Below are positions 1 to 63,929 of a stretch of DNA of 64,000 nt, in pieces. Numbering within the stretch: the first letter of the stretch is position 1; each line of letters starts with the position of its first letter. The notes beneath the pieces were generated by a model. That model made no database searches. It saw nothing but the letters and a program-made list of their open reading frames with translations, and was not told the origin of the DNA. Both the position numbers and the translations under genes were made by a program. The DNA lies in assembly GCA_907163375.1 (NCBI GenBank), contig CAJQUW010005269.1, positions 1 to 64,000 on the forward strand, in the 5' to 3' direction. Source of the stretch: Prostheceraeus crozeri. Lineage: Eukaryota > Platyhelminthes > Polycladida > Euryleptidae.

Positions 1-610
1 CGAAAATAAGACATTTCACAGAATGATCTACACCTCAATAGTCCGGCAAGTCCAACACAGAGTTTTCTGGAGGGAACGTGGCCCGTGACAATGAGACTTA
101 TTCACAGAATGATGTACACCTCATAGTCCGGCAGCCAGAACGAGTTTTTCTTGCAGGGAACGAGGCCGAGAGTGAGACTTTCACAGAATGATGTACATCT
201 CATAGTCCGGCAGCCAGCACGAGTTTCTGCAGGGAACGAGGCCGATAATGATACTTTCACAGAATGATGTACACTTCATAGTCCGGCAGCTAGCACGAGT
301 TTGTGCAGGGAACGAGGCCGACAATGAGACTTTCACAGAATGATGTACACCTCATAGTCCGGCAGCCAGCACGAGTTTCTGCAGGGAACATTGCCGAGAG
401 TGAGACTTTCACAGAATGATGTGCACCTCATAGTCCGGCAGTCAGCACGAGTTTGTGCAGGGAACGAGACCGACAATGAGACTTTCACAGAATGATGTAC
501 ACCTCATAGTCCGGCAGCCAGCACGAGTTTGTGCAGGGAACGATGCCGACAACGAGACTTTCACAGAATGATGTACACCTTATAGTCCGGCAGCCAGCAC
601 GAGCTTGTGT
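1..610 (-). repeat. 76-bp satellite, inverted block (about 8 copies)
   Basis: About eight tandem copies of the 76-bp satellite, in the orientation opposite to the main array. The recurring landmark is TTTCACAGAATGATGTACAC followed by a TCCGGCAGCC core. The block runs off the left edge of the window, so its full size is unknown. The last copy breaks off inside the core near 605-610. Confidence 0.95.
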
Positions 611-10000: not shown

Positions 10001-13000
10001 TGGCTGCCGGACTATGAGGTGTACATCATTCTGTGAAAGTCTCATTTTTGGCCTCGTTCCCTGCACAAACTCGTGCTGGATGCCGGACTATGAGGTGTAC
10101 ATCATTCTCTGAAAGTCTCACTCTCGGCCTCGTTCCCTGCAGAAAATCATGCTGGTTGCCGGGCTATGAGGTGTACATCATTTTGTGAAAGTCTTACTTT
10201 CGGCCTCGTTCCCTGCAGAGACTCGTGTTGGCTTCCGGACTATGAGGTGTACATCATTCTGTGAAAGTCTTATTTTCGGCCTCGTTCACTGCAGAGTCTC
10301 GTGTTGGCTGCCCGACTATGAGATGTACATCATTCTGTGAAAGTCTCACTCTCGGCCTCGTTCCCTGCAGAGACTCGTGTTGGCTGCCGGACTATGAGGT
10401 GTACATCATTCTGTGAAAGTCTCATTTTAGGCCTCGTTCCCTGCACAAACTCGTGCTGACTGTCGGGCTATGAGGTGCACATCATTCTGTGAAAGTATCA
10501 CTCTCGGCCTCGTTCCCTGCACAAACTCGTTCTAGCTGCCGGACTATGAGGTGTACATCATTCTGTGAAAGTCTCATTGTCAGCCTCGTTCCCTGCACAA
10601 ACTCGAGCTGGCTGCCGGACTATGAGGTGCACATCATTCTGTGAAAGTCTTATTTTCGGCCTCGTTCACTGCAGTGACTCGTGTTGGCTGCCGGACTATG
10701 AGGTGTACATCATTCTGTGAAAGTCTCAATCTCGGCCTAGTTCCCTGCAGAAACTCATGCTGGTTGCCGGACTATGAGTTGTACATCATTCTGTGAAAGT
10801 CTCATTGTCGGCATCGCTCCCTGCACAAACTCGTGCTGGATGCCGGACTATGAGGTGTACATCATTCTGTGAAAGTCTCACTCTCGGCCTCGTTCCCTGC
10901 AGAAACTCGTGCTGGTTGCCGGGCTATGAGGTGTACATCATTCTGTGAAAGTCTTATTTTCGGCCTCGTTCACTGCAGAGACTCGTGTTGGCTGCCGGAC
11001 TATGAGGTGTACATCATTCTGTGAAAGTTTCATTTTTGGCCTCGTTCACTGCAGAGACTCGTGTTGGCTGCCGGACTATGAGGTGCACATCATTCTGTGA
11101 AAGTCTCATTTTCGGCCTCGTTCCCTGCACAAACTCGTGCTGGATGCCGGACTATGAGGTGTACATCATTCTGTGAAAGTCTCATTCTCGACCTCGTTCC
11201 CTGCTGAAACTCGTGTTGGTTGCCGGGCTATGAGGTGTAATACATCATTCTGTGAAAGTCTTATTTTCGGCCTCGTTCACTGCACAAACTCGTGCTGGAT
11301 GCCGGACTATGAGGTGTACATCATTCTCTGAAAGTCTCACTCTCGGCCTCGTTCCCTGCAGAAACTCGTGCTGGTTGCCGGGCTATGAGGTGTACATCAT
11401 TCTGTGAAAGTCTTATTTTCGGCCTCGTTCACTGCAGAGACTCGTGTTGGCTGCCGGACTATGAGGTGTACATCATTCTGTGAAAGTCTCATTTTTGGAC
11501 TCGTTCCCTGCAGAAACTCGTGCTGACTGCCGGACTATGAGGTGCACATCATTCTGTGAAAGTCTTATTTTCGGCCTCGTTCCCTCCAGAAACTCGTGTT
11601 GACTGCCGGACTATGAGGTGTAGATCATTCTGTGAAAGTCTTATTTTCGGCCTCGTTCCCTGCAGAAACTCGTGCTGGCTGCCGGACTATGAGATGTACA
11701 TCATTCTGTGAAAGTCTCACTCTCGGCCTCGTTCCCTGCAGAGACTCGTGTTGGATGCCGGACTATGAGGTGTACATCATTCTGTGAAAGTCTCATTTTT
11801 GGCCTCGTTCCCTGCGCAAACTCGTGCTGACTGCCGGGCTATGAGGTGCACATCATTCTGTGAAAGTCTCATTCTCGGCCTCGTTCCCTGCAGAAACTCA
11901 TGCTGGCTGCCGGACTATGAAGTGTACATCATTCTGTGAAAGTCTCAAACTCGGCCTAGTTCCCTGCAGAAACTCATGCTGGTTGCCGGGCAATGAGGTG
12001 TACATCATTCTGTGAAAGTCTTATTTTCGGCCTCGTTCACTGCAGAGACTCGTGTTGGCTGCTGGACTATGAGGTGTACATCATTCTGTGAAAGTCTCAT
12101 TTTTGGCCTCGTTCCCTGCACAAACTCGTGCTGGATGCCGGACTATGAGGTGTACATCATTCTCTGAAAGTCTCACTCTCGGCCTCGTTCCCTGCAGAAA
12201 ATCATGCTGGTTGCCGGCTATGAGGTGTACATCATTTTGTGAAAGTCTTATTTTCGGCCTCGTTCACTGCAGAGACTCGTGTTGGCTTCCGGACTATGAG
12301 GTGTACATCATTCTGTGAAAGTCTTATTTTCGGCCTCGTTCACTGCAGAGTCTCGTGTTGGCTGCCCGACTATGAGATGTACATCATTCTGTGAAAGTCT
12401 CACTCTCGGCCTCGTTCCCTGCAGAGACTCGTGTTGGCTGCCGGACTATGAGGTGTACATCATTCTGTGAAAGTCTCATTTTTGGCCTCGTTCCCTGCAC
12501 AAACTCGTGCTGACTGCCGAGCTATGAGGTGCACATCATTCTGTGAAAGTATCACTCTCGGCCTCGTTCCCTGCACAAACTCGTTCTAGCTGCCGGACTA
12601 TGAGGTGTACATCATTCTGTGAAAGTCTCATTGTCAGCCTCGTTCCCTGCACAAACTCGAGCTGGCTGCCGGACTATGAGGTGCACATCATTCTGTGAAA
12701 GTCTTATTTTCGGCCTCGTTCACTGCAGTGACTCGTGTTGGCTGCCGGACTATGAGGTGTACATCATTCTGTGAAAGTCTTATTTTCGGCCTAGTTCCCT
12801 GCAGAAACTCATGCTGGTTGCCGGACTATGAGTTGTACATCATTCTGTGAAAGTCTCATTGTCGGCATCGCTCCCTGCACAAACTCGTGCTGGATGCCGG
12901 ACTATGAGGTGTACATCATTCTGTGAAAGTCTCACTCTCGGCCTCGTTCCCTGCAGAAACTCGTGCTGGTTGCCGGGCTATGAGGTGTACATCATTCTGT

Positions 13001-13378
13001 GAAAGTCTCATTTTTGGCCTCGTTCACTGCAGAGACTCGTGTTGGCTGCCGGACTATGAGGTGCACATCATTCTGTGAAAGTTTCATTTTTGGCCTCGTT
13101 CACTGCACAAACTCGTGCTGGATGCCGGACTATGAGGTGTGCATCATTCTGTGAAAGTCTCATTCTCGACCTCGTTCCCTGCTGAAACTCGTGTTGGTTG
13201 CCGCACTATGAGGTGTACATCATTCTGTGAAAGTCTCATTGTCGGCCTCGTTCCCTGCACAAACTCGTGCTGGCTGCAGGACTATGAGGTGTACATCATT
13301 CTGTGAAAGTCTTATTTTCGGCCTCGTTCACTGCACAAACTCGTGCTGGATGCCGGACTATGAAGTGCACATCATTTC
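1050..13378 (+). repeat. 76-bp satellite array (about 162 copies)
   Basis: Tandem array with a strict 76-bp period: CATCATTCTGTGAAAG begins at 1052, 1128, 1204 and so on. Units are about 50% GC, richer than the flanks. They vary at fixed positions (GCAGAAACTC or GCACAAACTC; GGCTGCC, GGTTGCC or GGATGCC; GTGTACATC or GTGCACATC), with scattered 1-bp indels. Diagnostic variants recur at multi-unit spacings, so blocks of many units were copied together. Because 76 is not a multiple of 3, open frames of up to 102 codons inside the array are by-products and not genes. The array ends near 13378, where the sequence turns AT-rich. Confidence 0.97.
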
Positions 13379-14990: not shown

Positions 14991-16844
14991 CACCATTTCC
15001 ACTTTAATTACAGAACTCTGCAGTTATATTCAAGAATCCAGCAGATTTATTTCAGCATTTCAAGTTTGTATTTCAGATTGAAGCATTTATATTTTTGACA
15101 ACAACATTTTAATTTCAGAGAATTTTTGTGCGTGTGTTTAAATCATTTATATTTGAGAATGCAACACTTATATTTCAGACTTTGTCATTTCTAATTCAGA
15201 AATAGACTTTATATTTCAGAAATGATCATTTATAATTCATTTTTAGTCATTTATATTTCAGAAATCCAGAAAAGACGATATATATTTAAGAAAGCGTCAT
15301 TTATATATCAGATTCGCAGTTTATATTTCAGAAATAATCATTTATAATTCATTTTCAGTCATTTATATTTCAGAATTCCAGAAAAGACGATGTATATTTA
15401 AGAAAGTGTCATCTATATTTCAGATTTGCAGTTTATATTTCAGAACCGGTCATTTCAATTTGAGATATCTGCACTTATAATTCAGACGCTAGAAGTAATT
15501 CAGAATAGGTCATTTATATTTCAGAAATCCCCATTTCACGTTCAGAATTGGTCACTTGCAATTCAGATGTCAAGTTTTAATTTCAGAAACGGTGAAATAT
15601 ATTTCAGAATGCATCAGTTTAATTTAAGCACTTCTCAGTTGTCAGAAAATGCTTGCAAAGATCCGAATAGTGTGCAGGAGGCTAAGGTATAAATTGGCCA
15701 ACACAGATGATTGATAAAATTACTGTTGGTGACAATGCAAGTGTCCGATAATTGTGCAATTTGTTTGAGACCAATGTCAAAAGCAACATTATTACGAATC
15801 CTGCCATGCATGCATTTATTCCACCGCGAATGCATTGCTCCTATTACGAACAGCGTCAATGCGTTAAATATAAAATCTCTGGATGAAAAAACGCATCTTT
15901 TATCTTACAAAATCAAATTAAAGAATATTGAATATCTCACAAAGTGATAGAAGCTTCTATTTTATTGAAAATGCCACTTCTGATTTAAAGAAACAAATTC
16001 TGAAAAATTCGACATTCTCAAATTTAATTGATGCATTCTGAAATATATTTCACCGTTTCTGAAATTAAAACTTGACATCTGAATTGCAAGTGACCAATTC
16101 TGAGAGTGAAATGGGGATTTCTGAAATATAAATGACGTATTCTGAATTACTTCTAGCGTCTGAATTATAAGTGCAGATATCTCAAATTGAAATGACCGGT
16201 TCTGAAATATAAACTGCAAATCTGAAATATAAATAACACTTTCTTAAATATATATCGTCTTTTCTGGAATTCTGAAATATAAATGACTAAAAATGAATTA
16301 TAAATGATCATTTCTGAAATATAAATGACACTTTCTTAAATATATATCGTCTTTTCTGGATTTCTGAAATATAAATGACTAAAAATGAATTATAAATGAT
16401 CATTTCTGAAATATAAACTGCAAATCTGAAATATAAATGACACTTTCTTAAATATATATCGTCTTTTCTGGAATTCTGAAATATAAATGACTAAAAATGA
16501 ATTATAAATGATCATTTCTGAAATATAAACTGCAAATCTGAAATATAAATGACACTTTCTTAAATATATATCGTCTTTTCTGGATTTCTGAAATATAAAT
16601 GACTAAAAATGAATTATAAATGATCATTTCTGAAATATAAAGTCTATTTCTAAAGTCTGAAATATAAGTGTTGCATTCTCAAATATAAATGATTTAAACA
16701 CACGCACAAAAATTCTCTGAAATTAAAATGTTGTTGTCAAAAATATAAATGCTTCAATCTGAAATATAAACTTGAAATGCTGAAATAAATCTGCTGGATT
16801 CTTGAATATAACTGCAGAGTTCTGTAATTAAAGTGGAAATGGTG
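14991..16844. mobile_element. Foldback element with long inverted arms
   Basis: Two long inverted arms, 14991-15636 and 16005-16844, flank a loop of about 370 bp. Outer ends are CACCATTTCC and its complement GGAAATGGTG. Both arms can be read as nearly the same open frame (plus 15426 onward, minus 16219 downward), which shows their high identity. The arms are made of short repeated words such as TTTATATTTCAGA. The right arm is longer because it holds four copies of a subrepeat of about 112 bp (CACTTTCTTAA at 16238, 16329, 16441 and 16553), against two in the left arm (15269 and 15381). No clear TSD or transposase is visible. It is best described as a foldback-type, non-autonomous DNA element; an RNA from it would form a very long hairpin. 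Confidence 0.85.
15711..15947 (+). pseudogene. RING-H2 finger fragment in the foldback loop
   Basis: A 78-codon open frame lying almost wholly in the unique loop between the inverted arms. Residues 14-45 carry the first six ligands of a RING-H2 zinc finger: CAIC, a 15-residue spacer, then PCMHLFHREC. RING-H2 domains bind E2 enzymes in E3 ubiquitin ligases. The last Cys-x2-Cys pair is missing; the sequence after HREC does not resemble a RING and soon becomes AT-rich. This is therefore a truncated domain, probably captured from a host gene, not a working ligase. No exon boundary or start context supports expression. Confidence 0.6.
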
Positions 16845-18952: not shown

Positions 18953-18968
18953 TTAAACAGGCCGCAGG

Positions 18969-21626
18969 ATGAAGTTGTTTCAAGCTTCACTATTGCTGAC
19001 TTTGCTGGTAATATGCACTTACGGTCATCCAGAGCCAAGGAGCCGTAGGAGTTTTGCAGTACAGAAAGCAGATCGTTCGAGAAAAGTACAAGATTACCAG
19101 TCATTCCTTAATTACCTTCAAGTGTATTTTATCAAGCGAAAGAATGCCCAGAGCAGAAAGTCCGAGAAGGAAGGATCAGACTACGGAATGAATGAAGCAG
19201 ATAAGGAAGACTATCCTAAACGGGCAGGAAGGAAAGAAGAAGAAGAGGGCCACGATTACGGGAAGCGAGAAAAGAAGCGAGGAGGAGGCTATGGCAAAGA
19301 GGAAGAAGAGGAAGAGGGTCACGATTACGAAAAGCGAGAAAAGAAGCGAGGAGGAGGCTATGGCAAAGAGGAAGAAGAGGAAGAGGGCCACGATTACGAA
19401 AAGCGAGAAAAGAAGCGAGGAGGAGGCTATGGCAAAGAGGAAGAAGAGGAAGAGGGCCACGATTACGAGAAGCGAGAGAAGAAGCGAGGAGGAGGCTATG
19501 GCAAAGAGGAAGAGGAGGAAGAAGGCCACGATTACGGGAAGCGAGAAAAGAAGCGAGGAGGAGGCTATGGCAAAGAGGAAGAGGAAGAGGGCCACGATTA
19601 CGGGAAGCGAGAAAAGAAGCGAGGAGGAGGCTATGGCAAAGAGGAAGAAGAGGAAGAGGGCCACGATTACGAAAAGCGAGAAAAGAAGCGAGGAGGAGGC
19701 TATGGCAAAGAGGAAGAGGAGGAAGAAGGCCACGATTACGGGAAGCGAGAAAAGAAGCGAGGAGGAGGCTATGGCAAAGAAGAAGAGGAAGAGGGCCACG
19801 ATTACGGGAAGCGAGAAAAGAAGCGAGGAGGAGGCTATGGCAAACAGGAAGAAGAGGAAGAGGGCCACGATTACGGGAAGAGAGAAAAGAAGCGAGGAGG
19901 AGGCTATGGCAAAGAAGAAGAGGAAGAGGGTCACGATTACGGGAAGCGAGAAAAGAAGCGAGGAGGAGGCTATGGCAAAGAGGAAGAAGAGGAAGAGGGC
20001 CACGATTACGGGAAGCGAGAAAAGAAGCGAGGAGGAGGCTATGGCAAAGAGGAAGAAGAGGAAGAGGGCCACGATTACGAGAAGCGAGAAAAGAAGCGAG
20101 GTGGAGGCTATGGCAAAGAGGAAGAAGAGGAAGAGGGCCACGATTACGGGAAGAGAGAAAAGAAGCGAGGTGGAGGCTATGGCAAAGAGGAGGAAGAGGG
20201 CCACGATTACGAGAAGCGAGAAAAGAAGCGAGGAGGAGGCTATGGCAAAGAAGAAGAGGAAGAGGGCCACGATTACGGGAAGCGAGAGAAGAAGCGAGGA
20301 GGAGGCTATGGCAAAGAAGAAGAGGAAGAGGGCCACGATTACGGGAAGAGAGAGAAGAAGCGAGGAGGAGGCTATGGCAAAGAAGAAGAAGAGGAAGAAG
20401 AGGGCCACGATTACGAGAAGCGAGAAAAGAAGCGAGGAGGAGGCTATGGCAAAGAGGAAGAAGAAGAAGAAGGCCACGATTACGAGAAGCGAGAAAAGAA
20501 GCGAGGAGGAGGCTATGGCAAAGAGGAAGAAGAAGAAGAAGGCCACGATTACGAGAAGCGAGAAAAGAAGCGAGGAGGAGGCTATGGCAAAGAGGAAGAG
20601 GAAGAGGGCCACGATTACGGGAAGCGAGAAAAGAAGCGAGGAGGAGGCTATGGCAAAGAGGAAGAGGGCCACGATTACGAGAAGCGAGAAAAGAAGCGAG
20701 GAGGAGGCTATGGCAAAGAGGAAGAAGAGGAAGAGGGCCACGATTACGGGAAGCGAGAGAAGAAGCGAGGAGGAGGCTATGGCAAAGAGGAAGAAGAGGA
20801 AGAGGGCCACGATTACGGGAAGCGAGAGAAGAAGCGAGGAGGAGGCTATGGCAAAGAGGAAGAAGAAGGCCACGATTACGAGAAGCGAGAAAAGAAGCGA
20901 GGAGGAGGCTATGGCAAAGAGGAAGAAGAGGAAGAGGGCCACGATTACGGGAAGCGAGAAAAGAAGCGAGGAGGAGGCTATGGCAAAGAGGAAGAAGAGG
21001 AAGAGGATCTCGATTACGAGAAGCGAGAAAAGAAGCGAGGAGGAGGCTATGGCAAAGAGGAAGAAGATGACGAAGAGGATTTTCGGAGAGGAGGTGGTAA
21101 TATCAAACGAAGTCGAGGCCGAAGGAGAGAAAGAACCTCCAGAAGAAGAAGAATGGGAGGTCGCAGAGTAGATGAATATGAAGACGAGGAAGAAGGCTAT
21201 TATTATCCCCAACGAAGTCGACGTAGACAAATGAGTCGATTTTCCCGAAGATGGCGAAGACGGGGTGGTCGCAGAGGTTCATTCAGAAGAAGAGAGGAGA
21301 CCTATCCTAGACGGGGCTGCGGCAAAGAATATTATCCCAAGAAAGAGGATGACAAAAAGGAAGATTATCCCAAGAAAGCAGTTGTTCCAAAGAAGACCGG
21401 TGGTAATGAGACAGTCACCTCGAAGAAAATGAAAGTTCCTAAAGGAAAGAATGTAACCGAGGAAGTAACAACGGAATCCTCTTTGGAACTGACCACGGCT
21501 GGTGTCGTGTCTGGGAGAGAAGACGGCAAGGAGGAGGACTCAACAGCTGCAGCGCTGATAAAAGAAATGATGACTCCAAAGATGGTCTCCAGTGCATCTG
21601 ATGGTCGTAACAAGAAACTCTCTTAG
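18969..21626 (+). CDS. Secreted tandem-repeat protein (polyprotein or peptide precursor)
   Basis: Single-exon frame of 885 residues. Residues 1-19 are a signal peptide (MKLFQASLLLTLLVICTYG). A basic leader with RSRR, IKRK and DYPKR sites follows. The bulk is a tandem array: GGGYGK occurs 27 times, normally as GGGYGK, then 3-7 Glu, GHDY, then G or E, then KREKKR. A unit is 20-24 residues, usually 23. Fifteen units, counting the leading half-unit, end DYGKR, a Gly-Lys-Arg amidation signal. Twelve end DYEKR and could not be amidated. The C-terminal ~190 residues differ: Arg-rich, then Tyr-rich YYPKK/DYPKK motifs and a Ser/Thr tail. There is one Cys outside the signal region. I know no homologue. 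It could be a peptide precursor, or a secreted polyampholyte such as an adhesive or mineral-associated matrix protein. The start fits the TATA box and signal peptide. Confidence 0.85.
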   Translation: MKLFQASLLLTLLVICTYGHPEPRSRRSFAVQKADRSRKVQDYQSFLNYLQVYFIKRKNAQSRKSEKEGSDYGMNEADKEDYPKRAGRKEEEEGHDYGKREKKRGGGYGKEEEEEEGHDYEKREKKRGGGYGKEEEEEEGHDYEKREKKRGGGYGKEEEEEEGHDYEKREKKRGGGYGKEEEEEEGHDYGKREKKRGGGYGKEEEEEGHDYGKREKKRGGGYGKEEEEEEGHDYEKREKKRGGGYGKEEEEEEGHDYGKREKKRGGGYGKEEEEEGHDYGKREKKRGGGYGKQEEEEEGHDYGKREKKRGGGYGKEEEEEGHDYGKREKKRGGGYGKEEEEEEGHDYGKREKKRGGGYGKEEEEEEGHDYEKREKKRGGGYGKEEEEEEGHDYGKREKKRGGGYGKEEEEGHDYEKREKKRGGGYGKEEEEEGHDYGKREKKRGGGYGKEEEEEGHDYGKREKKRGGGYGKEEEEEEEGHDYEKREKKRGGGYGKEEEEEEGHDYEKREKKRGGGYGKEEEEEEGHDYEKREKKRGGGYGKEEEEEGHDYGKREKKRGGGYGKEEEGHDYEKREKKRGGGYGKEEEEEEGHDYGKREKKRGGGYGKEEEEEEGHDYGKREKKRGGGYGKEEEEGHDYEKREKKRGGGYGKEEEEEEGHDYGKREKKRGGGYGKEEEEEEDLDYEKREKKRGGGYGKEEEDDEEDFRRGGGNIKRSRGRRRERTSRRRRMGGRRVDEYEDEEEGYYYPQRSRRRQMSRFSRRWRRRGGRRGSFRRREETYPRRGCGKEYYPKKEDDKKEDYPKKAVVPKKTGGNETVTSKKMKVPKGKNVTEEVTTESSLELTTAGVVSGREDGKEEDSTAAALIKEMMTPKMVSSASDGRNKKLS
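19240..21060 (+). repeat. Coding minisatellite, about 69-bp unit
   Basis: The repeat region of the precursor gene at DNA level: units of 60-72 bp (mostly 69), always multiples of 3. Length variation is confined to the GAG/GAA run. The coding strand is strongly purine-rich (GAAGAAGAGGAAGAGGG type runs). Because codon use is so biased, the other plus frame (19192-21171) and the minus strand (19176-21230) are also open for more than 650 codons. These are shadows. Confidence 0.9.
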
Positions 21627-34324: not shown

Positions 34325-35699
34325 TTAAAACTTTACGTGCAAAAATTGTACTACCCATAAGGAAGGAAGAAGACGTCCAGTAAAGGTGAACAATACAACT
34401 TCAAAAGGGAAATCATCAACCTTGTGATATACTGATGAGTGGACTCCATCTTGAGAAGCACTGATATTAACATCTAAATATTTGTTGTTATTCCCGTTTC
34501 TTTCCGGAATCAAATCATCCGGGTAGATTTGCATTGATAAACTGTCAAAATGTTGATAATTAGAGATGCACAAGTCATCTATATATCTCCCATTGAGTGA
34601 CAATAACTTCGCATGGCCAAATTTTTTCCTTGACACCAACTTTTTCGTAGACACAAATTCATAATAGAGGAGAAAAAGATCTGACAACAAAGGGTTTCAA
34701 TTGACACCCAATGGAACCGCGAATCTGCTTAAAAGTAAGTCCACCAAAAACCACATAAACTTCAGAAATTATGAAACGAACAGCGTCTTTAAATTTTTGC
34801 AAGATCAAAACAATGATAGCCATTATGCAGTTTCCTAGAGAAAAATATGCGATTCCATCCGAGACACAAATATTTTCGCGAAGCAGAATCGAAAACCAAA
34901 TCAAACAGCTGGAACAGGTGACAGACAATATCATTTTGCCCAAAATTAGTATACATCTTCGAAAAATCGTAAACTTGAAGCAAAAAACCTTATTACTTGA
35001 ATTAACAATTTCTAAAAATTCTAAAGAAGACTTAATACTCCAAAAGTACCGGAGACCACTATTTTTCTGTATAACATCACAATACTTCTTAAAACTTTTT
35101 CTAACAACAGTTAAACCCTTATTCAGTATTACTGAAAGATTCTTGGTCGTGTAGTGAAGTGCTCCGTTAAAAAGTCTCAACTTGTATGAATTCTTGCGGA
35201 ACTTAGGAATCCAGAAAATTCTTGGCAGGTGTTTGCATTTATCCCCCAAAGAAATATCATGAACATTATCGAACAAATCACAGTGTCTTTCAACGATAAC
35301 ATTTTCTGTTTCCTGAACAGGTGAATAAGTAACATTGCCAACAGGTCTCAAAGTGTTATAATTTGCTCCTAATTCGTCCATCAAGACTGAGGCATTGTGC
35401 TTCTTACACAATGGAAAATTTACAGAAGCGTTATCGACAGTTGAAACTATAAAATTCTTGTGTAAAACTTCAATAATGTCTTTTACACTATTTAATGACA
35501 AGAAACGTTCGAAATTATTAAATTTTACAAAGCTTATTCGCTTAGCAATACGCGCAGGAACATATTTCTTAAAATGATCAAAGCAATTTTCTAGAACACT
35601 AAAACGACGCGCTAGCTTAACAACATGTTCCTCAACGGAAGCAAACAACTTTCTTAACAGAAGACCATGGAACAACATTTGGTATACGAAACTTAGCAC
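34325..35699 (-). pseudogene. Reverse transcriptase of the Naiad-like element
   Basis: The 346-codon frame from 35699 carries the conserved N-terminal RT region (STVDNASVNFPLCKKHNASV), then LPRIFWIPKFRKNSYKLRLF (family: PK-H-K-x-R) and SGLRYFWSIKSS. The A motif appears in another frame as VYDFSKMYTNF (34789-34983). The B region reads FKQIRGS. The C motif RYIDD, the catalytic Asp pair, is at about 34574-34588 in the frame 34690-34325, followed by IYPDDLIPE, KYLDVNIS and VYHKVDDFPF. All motifs survive but over three frames, so the gene is broken. Confidence 0.75.
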
Positions 35700-35961
35700 C
35701 CTTTGACATCAGTTGTCGTACACTGTAAACTGTCACCTCTTAAAATCGAAGAAATCTGCATCCTAAAGCGCGACACACTAGAATTTTAGGAGGTTGCGTG
35801 AAATAGAATGCCGACATACTAAAGAGAACAATAACACTAGTGCGCTAGCCTCCTAAAACGCTTTGCTTTAGGATTTTTTTATTAGTTACGAATAGTGTCT
35901 CGCTTCAGTGTGTGATTTAGGAGGTGCTGGTTTAGAGTGTAGTCTTCTATCTTCCATCACT

Positions 35962-36560
35962 TCAAGGTTGCCGGTGAAAATATGACCATAAGAAAGAACT
36001 ATTAACAAAAGCTGGTTTATCATCATAAATACATTTACCAGTCAAAATAGTGTGAATTTTATCCAAGCTTAAATCACTCAAGAATTTGCAATAATCACAA
36101 ATCTTCAATGATATCGGATTACGAAGATTGTAACGAATTTTAGGAGGATATGAGCTTTGTACAGCATCTGGGAGTAGTCGACGTAATCTTCTATCTCCAA
36201 AAATAGATGGCAAATTGATACAATCAATTAGCTTACTATTAAATAACACAACAAAAGTGGCTCTATACTCACATTCCCTATACTAACAATATTTGGCTTG
36301 TAGTTGTTAAATTTCTGTAACAAAAAGGAAGAAAAAACAGGTAATAAATCACTTTTCATACTCAAAAGTCTTCGATAAACCGAACGTCTCAAGCTATTTG
36401 TAGGAGTCATAAGAGTACAACAGCATTCTTTGAAATTAGAGCTATAAAATAATATGTGTAGTTTGTCAACAATTGAATCACACAGCTCATTATCACCTTT
36501 TTGGTGTTTCCGACCACGACCACTACGTCGGATTCCATGTCCACTTTTGCGACGACGAAC
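35962..36560 (-). pseudogene. Linker region of the Naiad-like element
   Basis: Two overlapping minus frames (36410-36228 and 36249-35962) between endonuclease and RT. They contain a basic stretch (36500-36560, RRRKSGHGIRRSGRGRK) and no catalytic motif. Position and strand tie them to the element. The frames are offset, so at least one indel has occurred. Confidence 0.5.
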
Positions 36561-36639
36561 AGGAAGTCCAAAACATGCTAATTCACAAGCTGACCCGTTA
36601 GGCTGACGTTCTATGTAACTCCAGCCTTAGATACACGGC

Positions 36640-37064
36640 CTTCACCCATCAATTTGTAGTTCAGCCCAAGAGGATAAACGGTGTTGAGAGCACATATTTA
36701 AAAGTCTTCTTTCTGATCGAGAAATTACTTCTTATCTACTTCAGCTAATTCCGAATAGTCGACACAATCAATAATCGTAACAGGAAGGTCATCAAAAGAA
36801 TGGCTACCATCATGAAAATGCTTACAAAGAAGCGTGTTCAATTTATCTCTTACAATACTGTGTCGGTGTCCATCAATACGCATGTGCAATGGTTGCGTAG
36901 TTTGGCCTGCATACTGCAAAGCACATTTCATACAGGAAACAAGATATACAAGTACAGTGTACAACATACTTTGTCTTGCATGTGAACAATCCAGACTTAT
37001 TAAAAACAAATTTACAGCCCGTTGAAAAATATCTCAATTTGGTCTCAAGGTCAAAATTTGACAA
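36640..37064 (-). pseudogene. N-terminal GIY-YIG endonuclease of the Naiad-like element
   Basis: Minus frames give NKSGLFTCKTKYVV, then LVYLVSCMKCALQYAGQTTQ, LHMRIDGHRHSIVRDK, HFHDGSHSFDDLPV and, in another frame, LNTVYPLGLN. These are the GIY-like and YxG-like strands, the Arg/His helix and the terminal P-x-GLN motif of the endonuclease. The YIG motif reads YAG here. At least two frameshifts separate the parts. It would nick target DNA during retrotransposition. Confidence 0.65.
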
Positions 37065-37657
37065 GATTTGAAATTGTCATCAGAAATGCATAGAAACTAA
37101 ATGTCACATGAACTGGAAACGTAGCTCTTATTCTATACAGGTATTCTAATAGGTTTTGAAGCTAATCATTTGTAAGTGACACGGAGCACTCCCCAGGGTA
37201 AAATAAGATTAAATCCTGATTGAGTTCACTGCACATGTAATTGATTAGAATGGTGTGCACTTGTCATTAATGGGCGAACTGAGGATTCATTCTCAGCGGG
37301 AGAAAAGAGGTCAAGTGAAGGAGAAATTCTATTTCCTATTCGCGACTTGGTAGTTGAAAAAGTTGGGATTAATCATGTTTATTTCAAAAAGTAATGTGGT
37401 GCACTAAATTTGCATCGAGGTGGAATTCGTAGCTTTGTACAGTCAGTATTGAAGTATCGTATTCGTCAAACACGTATAAAGTCCATTTCCACCACGAAAA
37501 ATTCTTTTATCTTCTGCTTATTCTTTTGATTACTAAACGTATTATTCATTAGACCAGTCGAGACACTACATGGTCATTCATGAAGTCCCAAATGAGTACG
37601 AGAAAGACTCGTACTGAACCAGAGTGTAAACTATGCCTATGAAATTAATCCCATGAT

Positions 37658-43021: not shown

Positions 43022-43954
43022 AGCGACTAAAGCACATCTTTCTTTGATTGTCGCATCAATTTTCATCATACGGAAAACACTTTGCAATTGACATATGTTT
43101 GAGCAACAATATAATAGATGAATTATTGAACTATACTTGTTTTTGCATTGAAAGACTGACATGAGAAGTGAACACGCGTAGCAAGAAAATTCCTTAGCAG
43201 CCGTAGACGCTGCGTTTCGTCAATAAGGTTCAGAGGGGTTCAAACTAGTTCTGGCGTCTAGAAATGTTTTAGCAAGTTGATGACATGCACAAGAGGCTAC
43301 TATGCTTTAATTCATATTTTCTGTATCACAAGCGACGTGGCACTCTGCAAACTATTATGATCGCAAAGCTAGGAAAAATAAAGGCAGAGCAGACCGTGAA
43401 AATGAAGGTAACCGATTTTAGTGGGCAGATTTTCATCCGAATCCTTTGTAAAGCATTGTGAGTTCGAACCAAAACGGCCAAGAGTGCGAAACTAGATCAT
43501 TCTGTCGTGTAGTGTTGCTGACGGAAATCAATTTCATTGTAAATTAACATGACAGTGTGATAAATGACAGCACTTTCGTGACATGTGGATGCTATCAATT
43601 ACTCAATCATGAGCAATCATTACATAATCCACATCTGAATCAATTTCTTAATGATTATCACAATCAATATTTTATATCAAACTGTAAATCGTATGCCACC
43701 ATACCGATGAAATGCTGTCAAGCCTGTACAGTGTCTACTAAAAAAATGCATTTCTTCTAATCGTTAAAACAACTATGCATATAACAAAAGTTGGATGTTA
43801 CTTTACCCATTAAACGCGACTGTGATTTCTTTGCATATTTCGAATTACATCAATAAACATAGCTTGAAACATCACGAAACATGAATATTTAAACAGGCAG
43901 ATTGGATGGGAGCCATTTCGGATCGATTTTAAAGATGACATATATATATATACA
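43022..43954. other. Non-coding intronic region
   Basis: No domain-bearing frame and no repeat I can delimit. A plus frame 43557-43760 is unrecognised. The last bases before 43955 are a short (TA)n. Confidence 0.4.
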
Positions 43955-43981
43955 TTTATCAAATCTCAACAGATGTAACCA

Positions 43982-44023
43982 CCACGAGACATGTTTCGGC
44001 CTGTTGGGCCTCATCAGTCGTGG
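43982..44023 (-). ncRNA. Hammerhead ribozyme A (canonical core)
   Basis: Minus strand, 5' to 3': stem I strand CCACGA (44023-44018), CUGAUGA (44017-44011), stem II GGCC with loop CAACA and GGCC (44010-43998), GAAA (43997-43994), minimal stem III closed by two bases (C-AU-G), cleavage triplet GUC (43990-43988), and stem I strand UCGUGG (43987-43982). Stems I and II pair perfectly, and every catalytic-core position is canonical. Type I with a very short stem III is typical of retroelement hammerheads. Cleavage is predicted after the C of GUC. Confidence 0.85.
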
Positions 44024-44026
44024 GTA

Positions 44027-44088
44027 GGTTTGAACCAGCGACGTTGGAGCTAGAGGACGTGCAAGCATACCCTCTAACCACAAGGCCA
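44027..44088 (-). promoter_or_regulatory. tRNA-like Pol III internal promoter of the retrozyme unit
   Basis: Minus strand A box TGGCCTTGTGGTTAGAGG (44088-44071) and B box GGTTCAAACC (44036-44027), 34 bp apart, as in tRNA genes and tRNA-derived SINEs. The B box ends 3 bp before ribozyme stem I. The same boxes repeat in the next two units. The cloverleaf itself does not look like a functional tRNA. Confidence 0.75.
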
Positions 44089-44283
44089 CCGGACCATCTG
44101 TTGAGAGCGTGAATTAGCGTGGAAGACACTGCTTTAACGCAGGCACGTGGAGGGCGGACTGTATTCTGCAATCACTTAATACCGCTTCCGAGATTGAGGC
44201 GCTTCACGCAGGCGTTACTCATTACATGTTTAGACATGTAACCTGGCAATTGATAAATTTATCAAATCTCAACAGATGTAACC

Positions 44284-44326
44284 ACCACGAGACTTGTTTT
44301 GGCCTGGTGGACCTCATCAGTCGTGG
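44284..44326 (-). ncRNA. Hammerhead ribozyme B (mutated GAAA box)
   Basis: Same fold as copy A. CUGAUGA at 44320-44314, GUC and stem I are kept; stem I is even extended by a ACC/GGU segment with one bulged C. The GAAA box reads AAAA, replacing the catalytic G that acts as general base, so activity should be lost. Stem II is GGUCC/GGCC-like with changes. Confidence 0.7.
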
Positions 44327-44588
44327 GTGGTAGGTTTGAACCAGCGACGTTGGAGCTATAGGACGTGCAAGCATACCCTCTAACCACAAGGCCACCGGAC
44401 CATCTGTTGAGAGCGTGAATTAGCCTGGAAGACACTGCTTTAACGCAGGCACGTGGAGGGCGGACTGCATTCTGCAATCACTTAATACCGCTTCCGAGAT
44501 TGAGGCGCTTCACGCAGGCGTTACTCATTACATGTTTAGACATGTAACCTGGCAATTGATAAATTTATCAAATCTCAACAGATGTAAC

Positions 44589-44632
44589 CACCACGAGACA
44601 TGTCTCGGCCTGTTGGGCCTCATCAGTCGTGG
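44589..44632 (-). ncRNA. Hammerhead ribozyme C (GAGA core)
   Basis: CUGAUGA at 44626-44620, stem II GGCC/GGCC, GUC triplet and stem I intact. The GAAA box reads GAGA. One core A is changed, so activity is probably reduced or lost. Confidence 0.7.
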
Positions 44633-44891
44633 GTAGGTTTGAACCAGCGACGTTGGAGCTAGAGGACGTGCAAGCATACCCTCTAACCACAAGGCCACCG
44701 GACCATCTGTTGAGAGCGTGAATTAGCCTGGAAGACACTGCTTTAACGCAGGCACGTGGAGGGCGGACTGCATTCTGCAATCACTTAATACCGCTTCCGA
44801 GATTGAGGCGCTTCACGCAGGCGTTACTCATTACATGTTTAGACAAGTAACCTGGCAATTGATAAATTTATCAAATCTCAACAGATGTAAC

Positions 44892-44935
44892 CACCACGAG
44901 ACATGTCTCGGCCTGTTGGGCCTCATCAGTCGTGG
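44892..44935 (-). ncRNA. Hammerhead ribozyme D (GAGA core), 5' end of the array
   Basis: Same core change (GAGA) as copy C. On the transcribed strand this is the first ribozyme. The sequence before it is cut within the B box and turns into (TA)-rich DNA at about 44945, so the array starts at a ribozyme. Confidence 0.7.
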
Positions 44936-44945
44936 GTGGGTTTGA

Positions 44946-44968: not shown

Positions 44969-45011
<43 letters not shown>
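44946..45011. repeat. (TA)n microsatellite
   Basis: TATAGTTATAG-type repeats grading into a pure (TA)n tract. The DD41D-like transposon is inserted in it; the tract resumes at 46775. Confidence 0.9.
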
Positions 45012-45014
<3 letters not shown>

Positions 45015-46774
45015 GGTGATTTTTAATTGACGCAAGATTTAAAATTGTTTTTATTTCTACTTAGTCGACATGAAAAATGAAGTATTATACATTTCTGAAC
45101 ACCTGAAACTGGGGAATTTATGAATATCAAAGCGGTTAAAGCATATCTATAATCTCCAATTTTTAAGAAATTTTTATATTTTATCTTTGAATTTCATTAC
45201 CATTGAATTACTTCATTTCATTGAACTTCCTTTAATCACAACCATAGAAAAATTATTGATATTAGATATGAATAGAAAAGGGTAGCAAGTGAAAATCAGA
45301 CGCATTCTATCATCAATCTGATCACACTTCTATTAATTCATTTTGTCTTTGAGATCTTGATGGTGATAATTTCATTGTCATGAACTGTCAATGAAAAGCA
45401 TTTGCAAAGCGATCAGTAAGCGATGGAGCTATGAAGCCTCGATGAACAGCGTTTACAGAGCTATCAAGTGTGGAATAAAGGCTTGCAACACACGGCACTG
45501 TTGTCAAATGATCAAGATGTCTCTGTCTACTGAAACGAGAATTGAATTGATATTCCTGTACGCTCAAAATCATGAAAGTTGCCTTCAAACATTACGTGCA
45601 TATAAGACCAAACACAAGTTGCATAGAGATCCATTCGCTGTCACTACGATTCAACGATTAGTGACTCGTTTCAAAGCTACCGGTTCTGTAAACGATTCTC
45701 CAGGAAAAGGACGTAAAAGTTTAAGAGAAGAGCGCGAAGAAGAAGTGGAAAAGACTGTTGCAGAGATAACGAGTGGCCGCGAAATTCCTTGCTGTTCCAC
45801 CCGTGAGATTTCGGAAGCGACTAGATTTTCTCAATCTAATGTGTGGACAGTTCTTCGCAAGCAGTTGAGATGGTATCCCTATCGCACACGTGTCCATCAA
45901 GAAATAACGGATGGCGATAAGGTCCATCGACTTGAATTCGCCAACTGGCTGCTTACGAATGAGGACCTTATCCAACGCATCCTGTGGAGCGACGAGGCAA
46001 ATTTCACGCTTGATGGCAGCATTAATCGGCACAACTGTGTCATATGGAGCCCTAGCCCAGTCAATGTTTTGGTTTCGAAAGGGCTTCATCCTGAAAAAGT
46101 GACTGTCTGGTGTGGCATATCGTCAACATTCGTTTTGCAACCCTATTTCTTTGACTCCAGTCACTGGAAACAATTACCTTGGAATGTTGGAGCAGCACAT
46201 GTTGCCACAACTGGATGAGAAGGGAATCAAAAACTCCACTATCTTCCAGCAAGATGGAGCACCGCCCCATTTTCATGGAGACGTGACTCAATTCTTAAAG
46301 GCACATTTCCCCAATGATCGAGTCATTGGAAGAGGGCATTCCATAAGATGGCCAGCAAGATCTCCGGATTTATCCCCTCGATTTTTGGTTTTGGGGGACA
46401 TTAAAGGGTCGTGTCTTCCACCACAGTCGTCCTTCCACAATGAATCAGCTAATGCACAGAATAGCAGAAGAATGCAACAATTTTTCTTCAAGTGAAATAC
46501 AAAGTGCCATTGCAAACCTCCTCCTACGACTGCACCTTGTTGTAGAAAGCGAAGGTGACGTGATTGAACATTTGTTGTAAAGTTTTCAATGATTTTATGT
46601 AATGGAATATAAAAATTTCTTAAAAATTGGAGATTATAGATATGCTTTAACCGCTTTGATATTCATGAATTCCCCAGTTTCAGGTGTTCAGAAATGTATA
46701 ATACTTCATTTTTCATGTCGACTAAGTAGAAATAAAAACAATTTTAAATCTTGCGTCAATTAAAAATCACCCTG
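45012..46774 (+). mobile_element. Tc1/mariner-superfamily element, 1763 bp, TIRs about 170 bp
   Basis: Both ends carry inverted repeats starting CAGGGTGATTTTTAATTGAC and extending about 170 bp with near identity (left 45012-45180, right 46605-46774). TA flanks both ends within a (TA)n tract. One transposase gene fills the interior. The near-identical arms suggest a fairly recent insertion, although the gene already has two indels. Confidence 0.9.
45517..46580 (+). pseudogene. DD41D-like mariner transposase, two frameshifts
   Basis: The likely start is the ATG at 45517 (MSLSTETRIELIFLYAQNH), a typical N-terminus; the frame is open upstream to 45391. A helix-turn-helix region (TTIQRLVTRFKATGSV ... 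GRKS) is followed by the first catalytic Asp in ILWSDEANFTLDG (about 45988). A frameshift near 46150 moves to the frame with FQQDGAPPHF (second Asp). A 1-nt indel near 46378 breaks the PLDFWFWG block that holds the third Asp. After that the frame runs to a TAA at 46578-46580. About 41-42 residues separate the second and third Asp, which points to the DD41D group, not DD34D/E. It would cut and paste the element if intact; this copy cannot. Confidence 0.8.
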
Positions 46775-46792
46775 TATATATATATATATATG
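46775..46792. repeat. (TA)n, right remainder of the target tract
   Basis: Continuation of the (TA)n tract interrupted by the transposon. Confidence 0.85.
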
Positions 46793-51836: not shown

Positions 51837-52845
51837 TCGTTGTGCGTCGATACGGGAGGTTCATTTCAAAATAAGTAATTTCCAAATAATTGAAAAGAAA
51901 GAAGTCACTCCCTTCTATTTACGACTTTTTATTCCAATAAGTTAAAAATAAGCACCCGAGTCGACGCGTTTCGTCCGAAGACAGTCTGAAGGGTGGCGTA
52001 CAAATGTGGAAGGATTCTTAAATACTGATTAGGCATAGTTGTGGCAACTCATTAAACTTGTTCATGACGTCTATTAAGTTTTGACATTTTCATCGCTATG
52101 AAGCGTTTCTAGTTGTGCTAGCTAGTTGTGCTAGCCATTCTAGTTGTAATGGCATTAAATTGTTGAATAAGGATCTCACAACTAAAGTCAGTTATTTCCA
52201 TCTCTCTACCAGCATGAAATTTTAGATGATGCTCGCTCAAAGCACTTCTGGAATCTCTGTTGCGAATACTACGTTCGTGTTCTTGATAGCGCAACTTGAA
52301 AGGTCGACAACTTTGTCCAACATAGAGGTCATTGCACCAAAAGCAATTAAAACAATAAACTAGATATCTGCTTTTGCAGTTGTATTTAGGACCAATGGCG
52401 CTACACACATTACAATTGCATTCTTCTTTGGGTTTGCTTTTATTAATTGAAATAATTTTTCTCCCTGGTTTAGTTGAAAACGTTACCGGAATGTCATATT
52501 TAACTTTCAACTTATTTAATTTTCTCAAATGACAATCACTAACGAAATCGAGTGATAAGTGGACGTTGTCTGCTTTGATAGATGGCATTTTATTGTATTT
52601 ATTTTTATTCGTTTTAACATATTTATGATTAAACCTAAATCCGTTGCTGTTTATTCGATCACTCATAGTGCTCATAGAGTCATAAGCTATGTCTGCATCA
52701 GAACTGCGATCATTAATGTATTTTATACTATTTTTGAGAAAATTATTTTTTGCTTTATTTGAAAGCCAACTACCTCTATGTAGAGTTATGCCTGAATGAC
52801 ATGTCTTACTAAACCATTTGTATTTAAGGTTGCCATTCACTGATA
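51837..52845 (-). mobile_element. Penelope-like element fragment inserted in repeat R
   Basis: Minus-strand 3' part of a canonical (C-terminal endonuclease) Penelope-like element with its terminal hammerhead-like motif. It is flanked by a diverged direct repeat of about 55 bp of repeat R (51785-51836 and 52855-52915), which could be a long target duplication or pre-existing tandem R sequence. Confidence 0.65.
51958..51992 (-). ncRNA. Degenerate hammerhead-like motif
   Basis: Minus strand CAGACUGUC-UUCG-GACGAAACGCG: a stable GUC-UUCG-GAC hairpin followed by GAAAC as in hammerhead stem II and the GAAA box. The CUGANGA box is altered to UUCAGA. It lies downstream of the Penelope frame, where terminal-repeat ribozymes are expected. 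Confidence 0.4.
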
Positions 52846-52927
52846 TGCTTAGGTTTATTAACACGTTTGATCGATTTTTTGCTATCTTTCGCGTTGAAAA
52901 TGTGTTTGAACGGTCAACTGCACACAA
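52118..52927 (-). pseudogene. Penelope-like ORF 3' end with C-terminal GIY-YIG
   Basis: 269 codons. The N-terminal part resembles the RT thumb (KYKWFSKTCHSGITLHRGSW). A zinc-binding linker follows (ECNCNVCSAIG...KYNC). The GIY-YIG domain then reads RYLVYCFNC, NDLYVGQSCRPFKLRYQEH and SEHHLKFH. The endonuclease is C-terminal, unlike the element at 34-37 kb, so the window holds both Penelope architectures. The RT palm is missing, so the element is 5'-truncated. The first ~25 codons come from repeat R, so the annotated Met is not the true start. The domain looks otherwise intact over its full length. Confidence 0.75.
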
Positions 52928-53285
52928 CTTAATAACTTTTGCTGTATTAACGCTGCTGCTTTCGAGTTTGGGTTTAAAAGAATGCTGGTGTCATCAGCTC
53001 CAAGAATATGTAAGTTGTATCACGATCTGCCCATCCGTTCACTGGCAAACTTCAAATTCGTATTGTTCCCACATCCAACCATTCGGTGAGTCATCATTTC
53101 TCTCGGTGGAGGTCAGGATTTCGAATCCTTGATCTGCGCGCACACAAAGACTTGGCGTCAGACTGAGACTCGCCACCTGTTCACAAGCAATAGCAATCTC
53201 TTCACGTCGCAGTTGCTGCGCCCGATAAGTGAATCGACAAGACTTTTAGCAACTCATTCAATGATGACAGGAAACGGGGCAGTGC
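52846..53285 (+). repeat. Dispersed repeat R, copy 4, right part
   Basis: Continues the match to copy 1 (23600-24050, inverted): TTTCGAGTTTGGGTTTAAAA, GCCCATCCGTTCACTGGC and GCAGTTGCTGCGCCCGATAA. It ends at GGGGCAGT, just before the ATTTCAGA-rich inverted end. Confidence 0.75.
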
Positions 53286-61732: not shown

Positions 61733-63929
61733 CAGGGTCGGCAAAAATAAGTGGGACACGTATTTTTCAGTGTCATTTCTTCCATCAAATGACTTTAGAA
61801 TGTTGTGCATCTAATTGATCGATATTATTCTCGTTAAGTAACCACCATTAGTGTTCAATATTCCACTAGCACTTCATTATAAGTTTACTTCATGTCATTC
61901 AGGTGAAATTTAGGCCCACTCAAGTCATTGAATGCCCAATAGGCACAGAAAGGCAAAAACACAATTTCGGAAACCCTCCCACTTTATAAGTTATTTTGCT
62001 TCAAAATCATCATGCCTTATTAATAGTGACAAATATTCAATTGAAGCATTCGACACTTCATAATTTTGTGATTAATGATTTGTCTTGAATGTCTGTCAGT
62101 AAGCCATAGTAGGCCTATCGATCTTCTGTCATCATCACTAAAAAAAAAGCAATTTTGTCGTAGAATAGCTTTATTGAAAGGCACAGATTTATTGTCAAAT
62201 CTGTTGTCAGCTTTCTATGAACAGATTATTGTCAAATCTATTGTCAGCTTTCTATGAACACATTATTTTCATGTGAGACGCTGCTTGTTCGCATCACTTA
62301 TAATTTGAAAAAATTGAATTTGAATATGAAAAGCAAGATTAAGTCATTATCGCGCTATTGAAGTCAATTGAATCTTTCAGACACCTCCAATGATGAGCAA
62401 CATGACAAATATCCAACGTCTACAAATTATTACTTCGAGAGAGAACATCTAAATCCATACGTGAAATTGCAGATGAGTTGAATGTTACAAAGAGTGCTGT
62501 TGGGAGACTAGTGAAAGAAACTGGTTCGCATGAATCGCAAAAGTCTTTGTGTGGTCGTCATCGAGCAACAACTGAAGCTGAAGACCGAATGATTGTCCGG
62601 ATCAGCAAACGCAATCCTCATGCCAGTTCTGTGGACATCCAAGGAGAGATGTCAGCATTCGGGACAAACCTTAGCGAGCGAACTGTTAGGAATCGACTGA
62701 CTGAGGTGGGTCGAAGTGCGTATAAACCAATACCAGCCAAGTTCTAACTGACAACATGAAGGCTAAGCGTCTGCAGTGGGCAAAGGATCACCAGGATTGG
62801 ACCATTGATATGTGGAGATCAGTAAGTTGATGTCAAAATGATACCCACAAATAAAATGTAAAACTACAATTTTTATTGCAGTTTATTTTCTCGGACGAGA
62901 CGATGGTAGAGTTGCAGCCTCCCCAGACACAATTCGTTCGTCGCTCGTGGAATGAAGCCGTGTCAGAGGTCCATATGCGCCAGCAGTTTAAGCATCCTGT
63001 AAAACTCATGTTCTGGGGCTGCATGAGCTTCGAAGGAATGGGACGACTCCACCTTTGCGAGGGCTCAATGAACGCTGACCAGTATCTGACCGTACTGCAG
63101 CATCGTGTTGCGCCCCAGTCAGCAGAATGGTACGAAGGAACTGATTGGGTATACCAGCACGATTTGGCCCCATGCCACACTGCAAAGAGGGTGAAATCAT
63201 TCATGATTTCGAAAGGGTTTGAAGTATTGCAATGGCCAGGAAATAGTCCTGATTTAAACCCCATTGAGAACCTGTGGGGTTGCCTCAAAAATCGATTTCG
63301 TAAGCTGGGAATTCAGCAGAAATCAGAGGCAATCCGATGGTTTTTGAACACTGCCCACCACTGTGATGATGTCATCACAATCTGTGAAAATCTCGTCAAT
63401 TCCATGCCTGATCGAATCGAGAGGTGTATTGCAGCAAGAGGAGGACACATCAGGTATTGATGAGTTTTGGATCAGTTTATTTGCCTTTCAATAAAGTTAC
63501 CCTACGACAAAATTGTTTTTTTAGTGATGATGGCAGAAGATCGATAGGCCTACTATGGCTTACTGACAGAAATTCAAGACAAATCATTAATCACAAAATT
63601 ATGAAGTGTCGAATGCTTCAATTGAATATTTGTCACTATTAATAAGGCATGATGATTTTGAAGCAAAATAACTTATAAAGTGGGAGGGTTTCCGAAATTG
63701 TGTTTTTGCCTTTCTGTGCCTATTGGGCATTCAATGACTTGAGTGGGCCTAAATTTCACCTGAATGACATGAAGTAAACTTATAATGAAGTGCTAGTGGA
63801 ATATTGAACACTAATGGTGGTTACTTAACGAGAATAATATCGATCAATTAGATGCACAACATTCTAAAGTTATTTGATGGAAGAAATGACACTGAAAAAT
63901 ACGTGTCCCACTTATTTTTGCCGACCCTG
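61733..63929 (+). mobile_element. Tc1 (DD34E) transposon, 2197 bp, with about 450-bp TIRs
   Basis: Ends CAGGGTCGGCAAAAATAAGT / ACTTATTTTTGCCGACCCTG, with TA on each side (61731-61732 and 63930-63931). Inverted arms run 61733-62184 and 63482-63929 with near identity, long for a Tc1. The interior is a single transposase gene on the plus strand, with frameshifts. Confidence 0.9.
62402..63460 (+). pseudogene. Tc1 DD34E transposase with a likely 60-nt intron
   Basis: N-terminal helix-turn-helix SIREIADELNVTKSAVGRLV; linker with LCGRHRATT (62478-62747). A -1 shift occurs near 62747 and the protein continues LTDNMKAKRLQWAKDHQDWT. A likely intron follows at 62822-62881 (GTAAGT...TTTATTGCAG), joining MWRS to FIFSDET, the first catalytic Asp. 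The second Asp is in VYQHDLAPCHTA and the Glu in SPDLNPIENLWG, 34 residues apart. The C-terminus is normal and stops at 63460. Another shift near 62450 affects the first codons. The catalytic triad is intact, but the frameshifts make this copy inactive. Confidence 0.8.

Follow-up and report, generated by a model that had tools for sequence, protein, structure and literature searches.

The feature that we analyzed is a tandem array on the minus strand of a 64-kb window, the window being the whole stretch of DNA that was examined (Table 1). Read in the sense direction, the array consists of units of 303, 303, and 306 bp followed by 80 bp of a fourth unit. Tandem Repeats Finder reported it at positions 43950-44945, with a period of 303, 3.3 copies, and 96% matches. 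The G+C content of the array is 49.5%, compared to 35.5% and 37.8% in the neighboring 2-kb windows that do not contain most of it. No second copy of the unit was found elsewhere in the 64-kb window by BLAST, and no stop-to-stop frame of at least 90 amino acids lies within the array.

Other repeats occupy the first part of the window. A 76-bp satellite extends from 1051 to 13376 (162 copies over 12.3 kb), and about eight copies in the opposite orientation are at the very start of the window (1-603; by eye from the consensus units). Two 112-bp tandem-repeat blocks (15142-15486 and 16221-16667) are less than 1 kb apart and have a similar 21-bp sub-repeat in opposite orientation (by eye), as in an element with inverted ends built from repeats. 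Positions 18957-21626 of the plus strand hold an 889-residue stop-to-stop frame, in which a stretch resembling a signal peptide lies close to the start and approximately 27 repeats, each of about 23 residues, are rich in E, K, R, G, and Y; it had no Pfam match at E 0.001.

Table 1. Coordinates of the tandem array and of the features in and beside it.
Feature	Position	Strand	Description
Whole tandem array	43954..44945	-	three full units and an 80-bp partial unit
Hammerhead copy 1 (first in sense direction)	44880..44945	-	core GAGA (A14G); predicted cut after 44900
Hammerhead copy 2	44577..44642	-	core GAGA (A14G); predicted cut after 44597
Hammerhead copy 3	44271..44339	-	core AAAA (G12A); predicted cut after 44291
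Hammerhead copy 4	43968..44033	-	sole complete core, CTGATGA...GAAA...GTC; predicted cut after 43988
A-box-like TGGCCTTGTGG to B-box-like GGTTCAAACCT stretch, unit 1	44635..44697	-	predicted long hairpin
A/B-box-like stretch, unit 2	44332..44394	-	
A/B-box-like stretch, unit 3	44026..44088	-	
Predicted three-way module	44573..44715	-	12-nt arms TCTCAACAGATG (first base 44715) and CATCTGTTGAGA (first base 44584)
Array 3' edge	43954..43962	-	mid-point of the perfect 16-nt palindrome TTGATAAATTTATCAA
(TA)21 tract	44970..45011		5' side of array

The array contains four motifs with the architecture of type I hammerhead ribozymes. The sequence CTGATGA is on the minus strand at 44929, 44626, 44320, and 44017, which confirms the spacing of 303, 306, and 303 bp given in a preliminary description of this DNA. 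The matching stems and GUC site that it reported are also there: each of the four copies has a 6-bp stem I (CCACGA/TCGTGG), a 4-bp stem II, and a GTC cut site, in a three-helix layout with an open stem I and a helix III of one pair. The letters of an outer stem I (AACC/GGTT) are likewise present in every copy, including copy 1, in which AACC is retained because the edge of the array reads TCAAACC. In the best single-strand fold, the outer stem was formed in copies 2 and 4, and copies 1 and 3 paired otherwise.

Three of the four ribozyme cores are changed. All four motifs had been described as being of the CUGAUGA..GAAA type, which is true of copy 4; it alone has the complete type I core (CUGANGA...GAAA...NUH), and copies 1, 2, and 3 each deviate at one position, 14 or 12 in the usual hammerhead numbering. 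Changes at G12 and A14 of the hammerhead kill or damage the ribozyme. With core changes in three of its four ribozymes, this locus is probably itself a poor source of monomers. Copy 3 has two further peculiarities, 3 extra nucleotides before stem I and a loop III of CAAG rather than CAUG.

The preliminary description had also proposed a covariance-model search. In a 2-kb search, the Rfam model Hammerhead_HH9 (RF02275), with which the motifs have a two-part stem I in common, matched all four copies and was the best-scoring model of its clan for each of them, with scores of 33.5, 30.2, 28.2, and 21.6 bits (E values of 4.1e-6, 5e-5, 2.1e-4, and 0.027), all under the curated gathering score of 52 bits. 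At gathering thresholds, no Rfam family matched anywhere in the 64-kb window.

It is very improbable that the motifs are chance matches or decayed sequence without ribozyme function. This possibility would account for there being a single intact core and for the low Rfam scores, but a descriptor that allows up to two core mismatches found only these four sites in 64 kb on either strand, and the stems and the cut site are present in every one of them. The same descriptor gave a total of 25 matches in 60 shuffled windows and never more than two per window. A second descriptor, with looser requirements for stem II and loop III, found one extra site outside the array, at 37279 on the plus strand. 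This site has a 3-bp stem II, and we judged it to be due to chance, given 12 strict matches in 100 shuffled windows. The exact ribozyme pattern had no matches in viral contigs, and the exact pattern of the A-box stretch had none in viral contigs or in bacterial and archaeal genome contigs; these are not animal genomes, and the result says little.

The structure of helix III suggests that the ribozymes would act best in pairs. In the sequence GAAACAUGUC, this helix is reduced to one A-U pair, which closes a palindromic CAUG loop. The axolotl ribozyme HHR_Amex1 has a single-pair stem and a palindromic tetraloop, is weak alone, and is described as cleaving better as a dimer (PMC7229834). The likeness of our motifs to this type of salamander and newt satellite hammerhead concerns helix III. 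Two ACAUGU loops with their own neighbors were predicted to form a 6-bp duplex of -6.0 kcal/mol (-4.6 kcal/mol for the bare loops), and the pairing predicted between the loops of copies 3 and 4 was weak (-1.6 kcal/mol).

Predicted folds of the ribozymes differed between the RNAs that were folded. The fold energies of single ribozymes were not clearly better than those of shuffled sequences (z of -0.80 to -1.49). When the whole array (996 nt) was folded, the probability of a local stem I was 0.59 for copy 2, 0.32 for copy 3, and 0.02 for the intact copy 4; copies 1 and 4 had their stem I strands paired to one another (0.52 and 0.62) and not to their own partners. For a transcript starting at the first A-box-like motif, the predicted probabilities of a local stem I were 0.80, 0.32, and 0.79 for copies 2, 3, and 4, respectively. 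The value for copy 3 was never above 0.32 in the predicted folds.

As circles, the monomers were predicted to be strongly self-paired. The predicted energies of circular monomers 1 to 3 were -102.8, -98.9, and -99.4 kcal/mol (z of -3.61, -4.01, and -3.75), and for none of the three did any of 100 shuffled sequences have an energy as low. Stems I and II were formed in circular monomers 1 and 3; monomer 2, which has the core of copy 3, kept stem II and had stem I paired otherwise.

The array resembles the non-LTR retrozymes of animals. These are described as having type I hammerheads, RNAs of approximately 170-400 nt, genomic copies from dimers to large multimers, and no LTR, PBS, or PPT, and their circles as strongly self-paired (Cervera and de la Pena 2020, PMC7229834). 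Compared by layout, the array has in common with them the type I hammerhead, the unit of approximately 300 bp, the tandem of a few units, a predicted self-paired circle, and Penelope-like elements in the same genome (PMC7229834); it differs in having three changed cores out of four and A/B-box-like motifs beside the ribozyme. The known layout of animal retrozymes, which had been claimed for this DNA, is supported in part, by unit size, tandem form, ribozyme type, and predicted circle fold. On the strength of this layout, we conclude that the array is probably an insertion of an animal non-LTR retrozyme, a small non-coding retroelement. Its RNA would be predicted to self-cleave into pieces of about 303 nt that would likely be ligated into circles. 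The transposons in the window and the type of element suggest that the DNA comes from an animal.

The unit may contain a promoter for RNA polymerase III. A- and B-box-like motifs, scored against what we take to be the A/B-box consensus, are 41 nt apart with one mismatch each in all three full units (Table 1), and the AACC of the B-box-like motif doubles as the 5' strand of the outer stem I of the next ribozyme. Such pairs appeared in 4 of 300 shuffled units and 20 times in 10 shuffled 64-kb windows (approximately two in each). The predicted 12-bp stem TCTCAACAGATG/CATCTGTTGAGA encloses the A/B hairpin together with ribozyme 2; ribozymes 3 and 4 are flanked by the same 12-nt arms, at 44412/44278 and 44106/43975, respectively. 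In its sense strand the array has no TTTT, so that multimers could form. We dropped this absence as evidence for polymerase III, finding it weak: 504 of 1000 shuffles of the unit also had no TTTT. Among the 303-base tiles of the window, TTTT was absent from just 74 of 422.

The A/B-box-like motifs raise the possibility that the unit is a hammerhead-containing, tRNA-related SINE whose mobility depends on a LINE and not on a Penelope-like element. The Sm-alpha elements of Schistosoma are described as SINE-like and similar to tRNA-Gln (PMC2770079, PMC4918200), and Sm-alpha and Sj-alpha, like our array, are repeats of similar size (335 bp in W36.2_W001) with a type I hammerhead (PMC2770079, PMC4918200, PMC8490949). 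As they are described, however, their hammerhead is joined to a recognizable tRNA-Gln, and our unit has A/B-box-like motifs only. Neither ARAGORN nor Rfam (RF00005, at E 10 over 101 bases) found a tRNA, the A/B stretch was predicted to fold as a hairpin and not as a cloverleaf, and reading the edge of the array revealed no LINE tail. Despite the presence of the motifs in every full unit and their scarcity in shuffled units, we consider a SINE origin unlikely. Schistosoma was the only case of polymerase III-driven or SINE-like retrozymes encountered in a limited literature search; the main text of PMC7229834 makes no mention of SINEs or polymerase III, and according to a 2020 review, the retrozymes of animals might be considered a new family of SINEs (PMC7761336).

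The edges of the array are on two sides of a ribozyme. The array had been thought to start and stop at a ribozyme. It does start at one, as homology begins with TCAAACC, where the first ribozyme has its 5' edge; it ends 34 nt beyond the last predicted cut site, at 43954. This 3' edge falls at the center of a palindrome that is complete in all three full units (44859-44874, 44556-44571, and 44250-44265), a coincidence that is weak as evidence, having been noticed after the fact at one locus.

Both edges are next to TA repeats. In addition to the (TA)21 tract, a shorter TA tract is on the 3' side of the array (approximately 43940-43953), and no target-site duplication could be distinguished from the TA repeats at the edges. 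Across the (TA)21 tract from the array is a Mariner/IS630-like element (45010-46776), with matching inverted ends (TACAGGGTG at 45010 and CACCCTGTA at 46768) and an ORF for a DUF4817 transposase that is not continuous. A protein from an ENA contig (P0002) is 99% identical to the mariner-like query over 92% of the query. Further TA repeats begin at 46775, beyond this element. With the array between TA tracts, the mariner-like element beyond the (TA)21 tract, and then more TA, one TA microsatellite seems to have been invaded twice. A second transposase is at 62406-63460 on the plus strand (DDE_3 domain, E 2.2e-15), preceded by a helix-turn-helix-like ORF (by eye).

Broken relics of Penelope-like elements are on the minus strand approximately 7 kb away on each side of the array, at 34325-37033 and 52118-52990. 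The assignment of the second relic is based on the homologues of one ORF (52121-52990). Three of its 21 homologues (P0028, P0038, and P0039) have PF00078, which we take to be a reverse transcriptase family, and/or PF01541 (GIY-YIG), and P0039 is the only one with both. The relic at 34325-37033 was assigned by motifs that we presume to be those of Penelope-like elements; the order of its pieces, endonuclease-like upstream of reverse-transcriptase-like by the same presumed motifs, suggests a partial tandem. The two longest Penelope-like ORFs matched no Pfam family at E 0.001, and none was above the cut-off at E 5 in a search with seven proteins that included these two. A search of PDB sequences gave nothing of note, and the predicted structure of the 52121-52990 ORF had a mean pLDDT of 31 and was not carried on to a fold search.

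The position of the 3' edge is reminiscent of insertion by Penelope-like elements. The purified enzyme of an Anolis Penelope-like element is reported to start reverse transcription inside the RNA, at a stem-loop downstream of a hammerhead, and to cut AT-rich DNA (PMC11167929), and rotifer Penelope elements have a short extension and a preference for simple AT-rich targets (PMC3846280). The array shares with Penelope-like elements a hammerhead shortly before the 3' edge and a short extension past it, a stem-loop at the edge, an AT-rich target, and tandem copies (PMC11167929, PMC3846280). It differs in that the unit is without coding sequence: among frames of at least 90 amino acids, the reverse transcriptase and GIY-YIG coding of a Penelope-like element is absent from the array. 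The distance from edge to cut is also different, 34 nt here versus approximately 85-92 nt as worked out for Anolis (cut at 26 and start at 111-118 nt into the ORF; PMC11167929). Hammerhead mutants did not affect insertion of the Anolis element in vitro, where the ribozyme is dispensable (PMC11167929); a change at C3 or G8 of the hammerhead is reported in that study to prevent cleavage.

Starting from what can be seen directly in the DNA (the repeat, the motifs and their core changes, the two edges, the TA tracts, and the nearby Penelope-like relics), we propose a route in four steps. Transcription of the repeat would come first, and RNA polymerase III might carry it out, using the A/B-box-like pair of each unit. 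The hammerheads are predicted to cut after GUC, and to do so best in pairs because helix III is a single pair with a palindromic CAUG loop; within a pair, an intact core might cut the site of a partner with a dead core. By analogy to published retrozymes, host tRNA ligase would then close the monomers into circles. Finally, a Penelope-like enzyme may cut a TA tract, begin reverse transcription within the RNA at the stem-loop that immediately follows the ribozyme, and continue through several units.

Differences between the units bear on how the array arose. We compared the units after removing the 3-nt insertion of copy 3 and dropping position 81, the first mismatch past the 3' edge. Units 1 and 2 differed at 3 of 303 sites, units 2 and 3 at 8, and units 1 and 3 at 9. 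Six of the 10 substitutions within the array are in the 66-nt ribozyme part, which makes up 27% of the compared sites (binomial P = 0.029, in a test chosen post hoc). A14G is common to copies 1 and 2 and is absent from copies 3 and 4. Rolling copying of one circle gives units that are initially equal, so a shared change points to later duplication or conversion or to a mixed template. The distribution of A14G therefore counts against a single circle that was copied round without later exchange.

Local tandem duplication of DNA is a somewhat unlikely but substantial alternative, in which one retrozyme or satellite unit became three by unequal crossing-over without reverse transcription of a multimer at this site. 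It fits what is seen in neighboring units 1 and 2, which have A14G in common and are more alike than units 2 and 3. The edges at two sides of a ribozyme and the flanking TA tracts are explained more simply by insertion.

A different template might also explain the differences between the units. A linear transcript with mostly dead ribozymes may have escaped cutting and been reverse transcribed whole, with the differences already in it. We regard this as improbable, even though it fits the changed cores of three of the four copies, the non-identity of the units, and the concentration of substitutions in the ribozyme part, since ten changes are few, the test was chosen after the data had been seen, and the changes may postdate the insertion. 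More doubtful still is a combined proposal: that the element is a retrozyme fused to a polymerase III promoter, with the end of the B box serving as ribozyme stem I, which would unite the promoter, the ribozyme, and the Penelope-type start site in a single RNA module; that arrays come from uncut multimers with dead ribozymes and not from circles; and that the few intact cores act on dead partners through the palindromic loops.

Based on the evidence on both sides, we favor an inserted retrozyme. In its favor are the tandem repeat with its edges, the HH9 matches in all four copies, and the descriptor that finds these four sites only; the flanking TA tracts and the PF00078 and PF01541 domains among the homologues of the 52121-52990 ORF; and, from modeling, the self-paired circles, the predicted stem I of copies 2 and 4 in the transcript from the A-box-like motif, and the predicted loop duplex. 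Against it are the three changed cores, the Rfam scores below gathering, the single copy in 64 kb, and the indistinct target-site duplication; the frequency of A/B-box pairs in shuffled windows, the lack of a match to a tRNA model, and the restriction of A14G to copies 1 and 2; and, again from modeling, the unremarkable energies of single motifs, the disrupted stem I of copy 4 in the whole-array fold, and the weak predicted pairing of the loops of copies 3 and 4. In the most probable history, a Penelope-like enzyme inserted a multimer into a TA tract, with a circle or an uncut transcript as its template and perhaps some local duplication afterward.

For the step in which retrozyme RNA becomes DNA, Penelope-like elements have been named as a strong candidate without proof (PMC7229834). 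Support for the link to Penelope-like elements would come from dispersed copies of the unit that lie in TA repeats and share one end, the stem-loop beyond the ribozyme. The main interest of this locus is in the origin of tandem arrays whose ribozymes are mostly changed: an array in which one ribozyme is intact and three are changed raises the question of whether the source of such arrays is circles or transcripts that escaped cutting.
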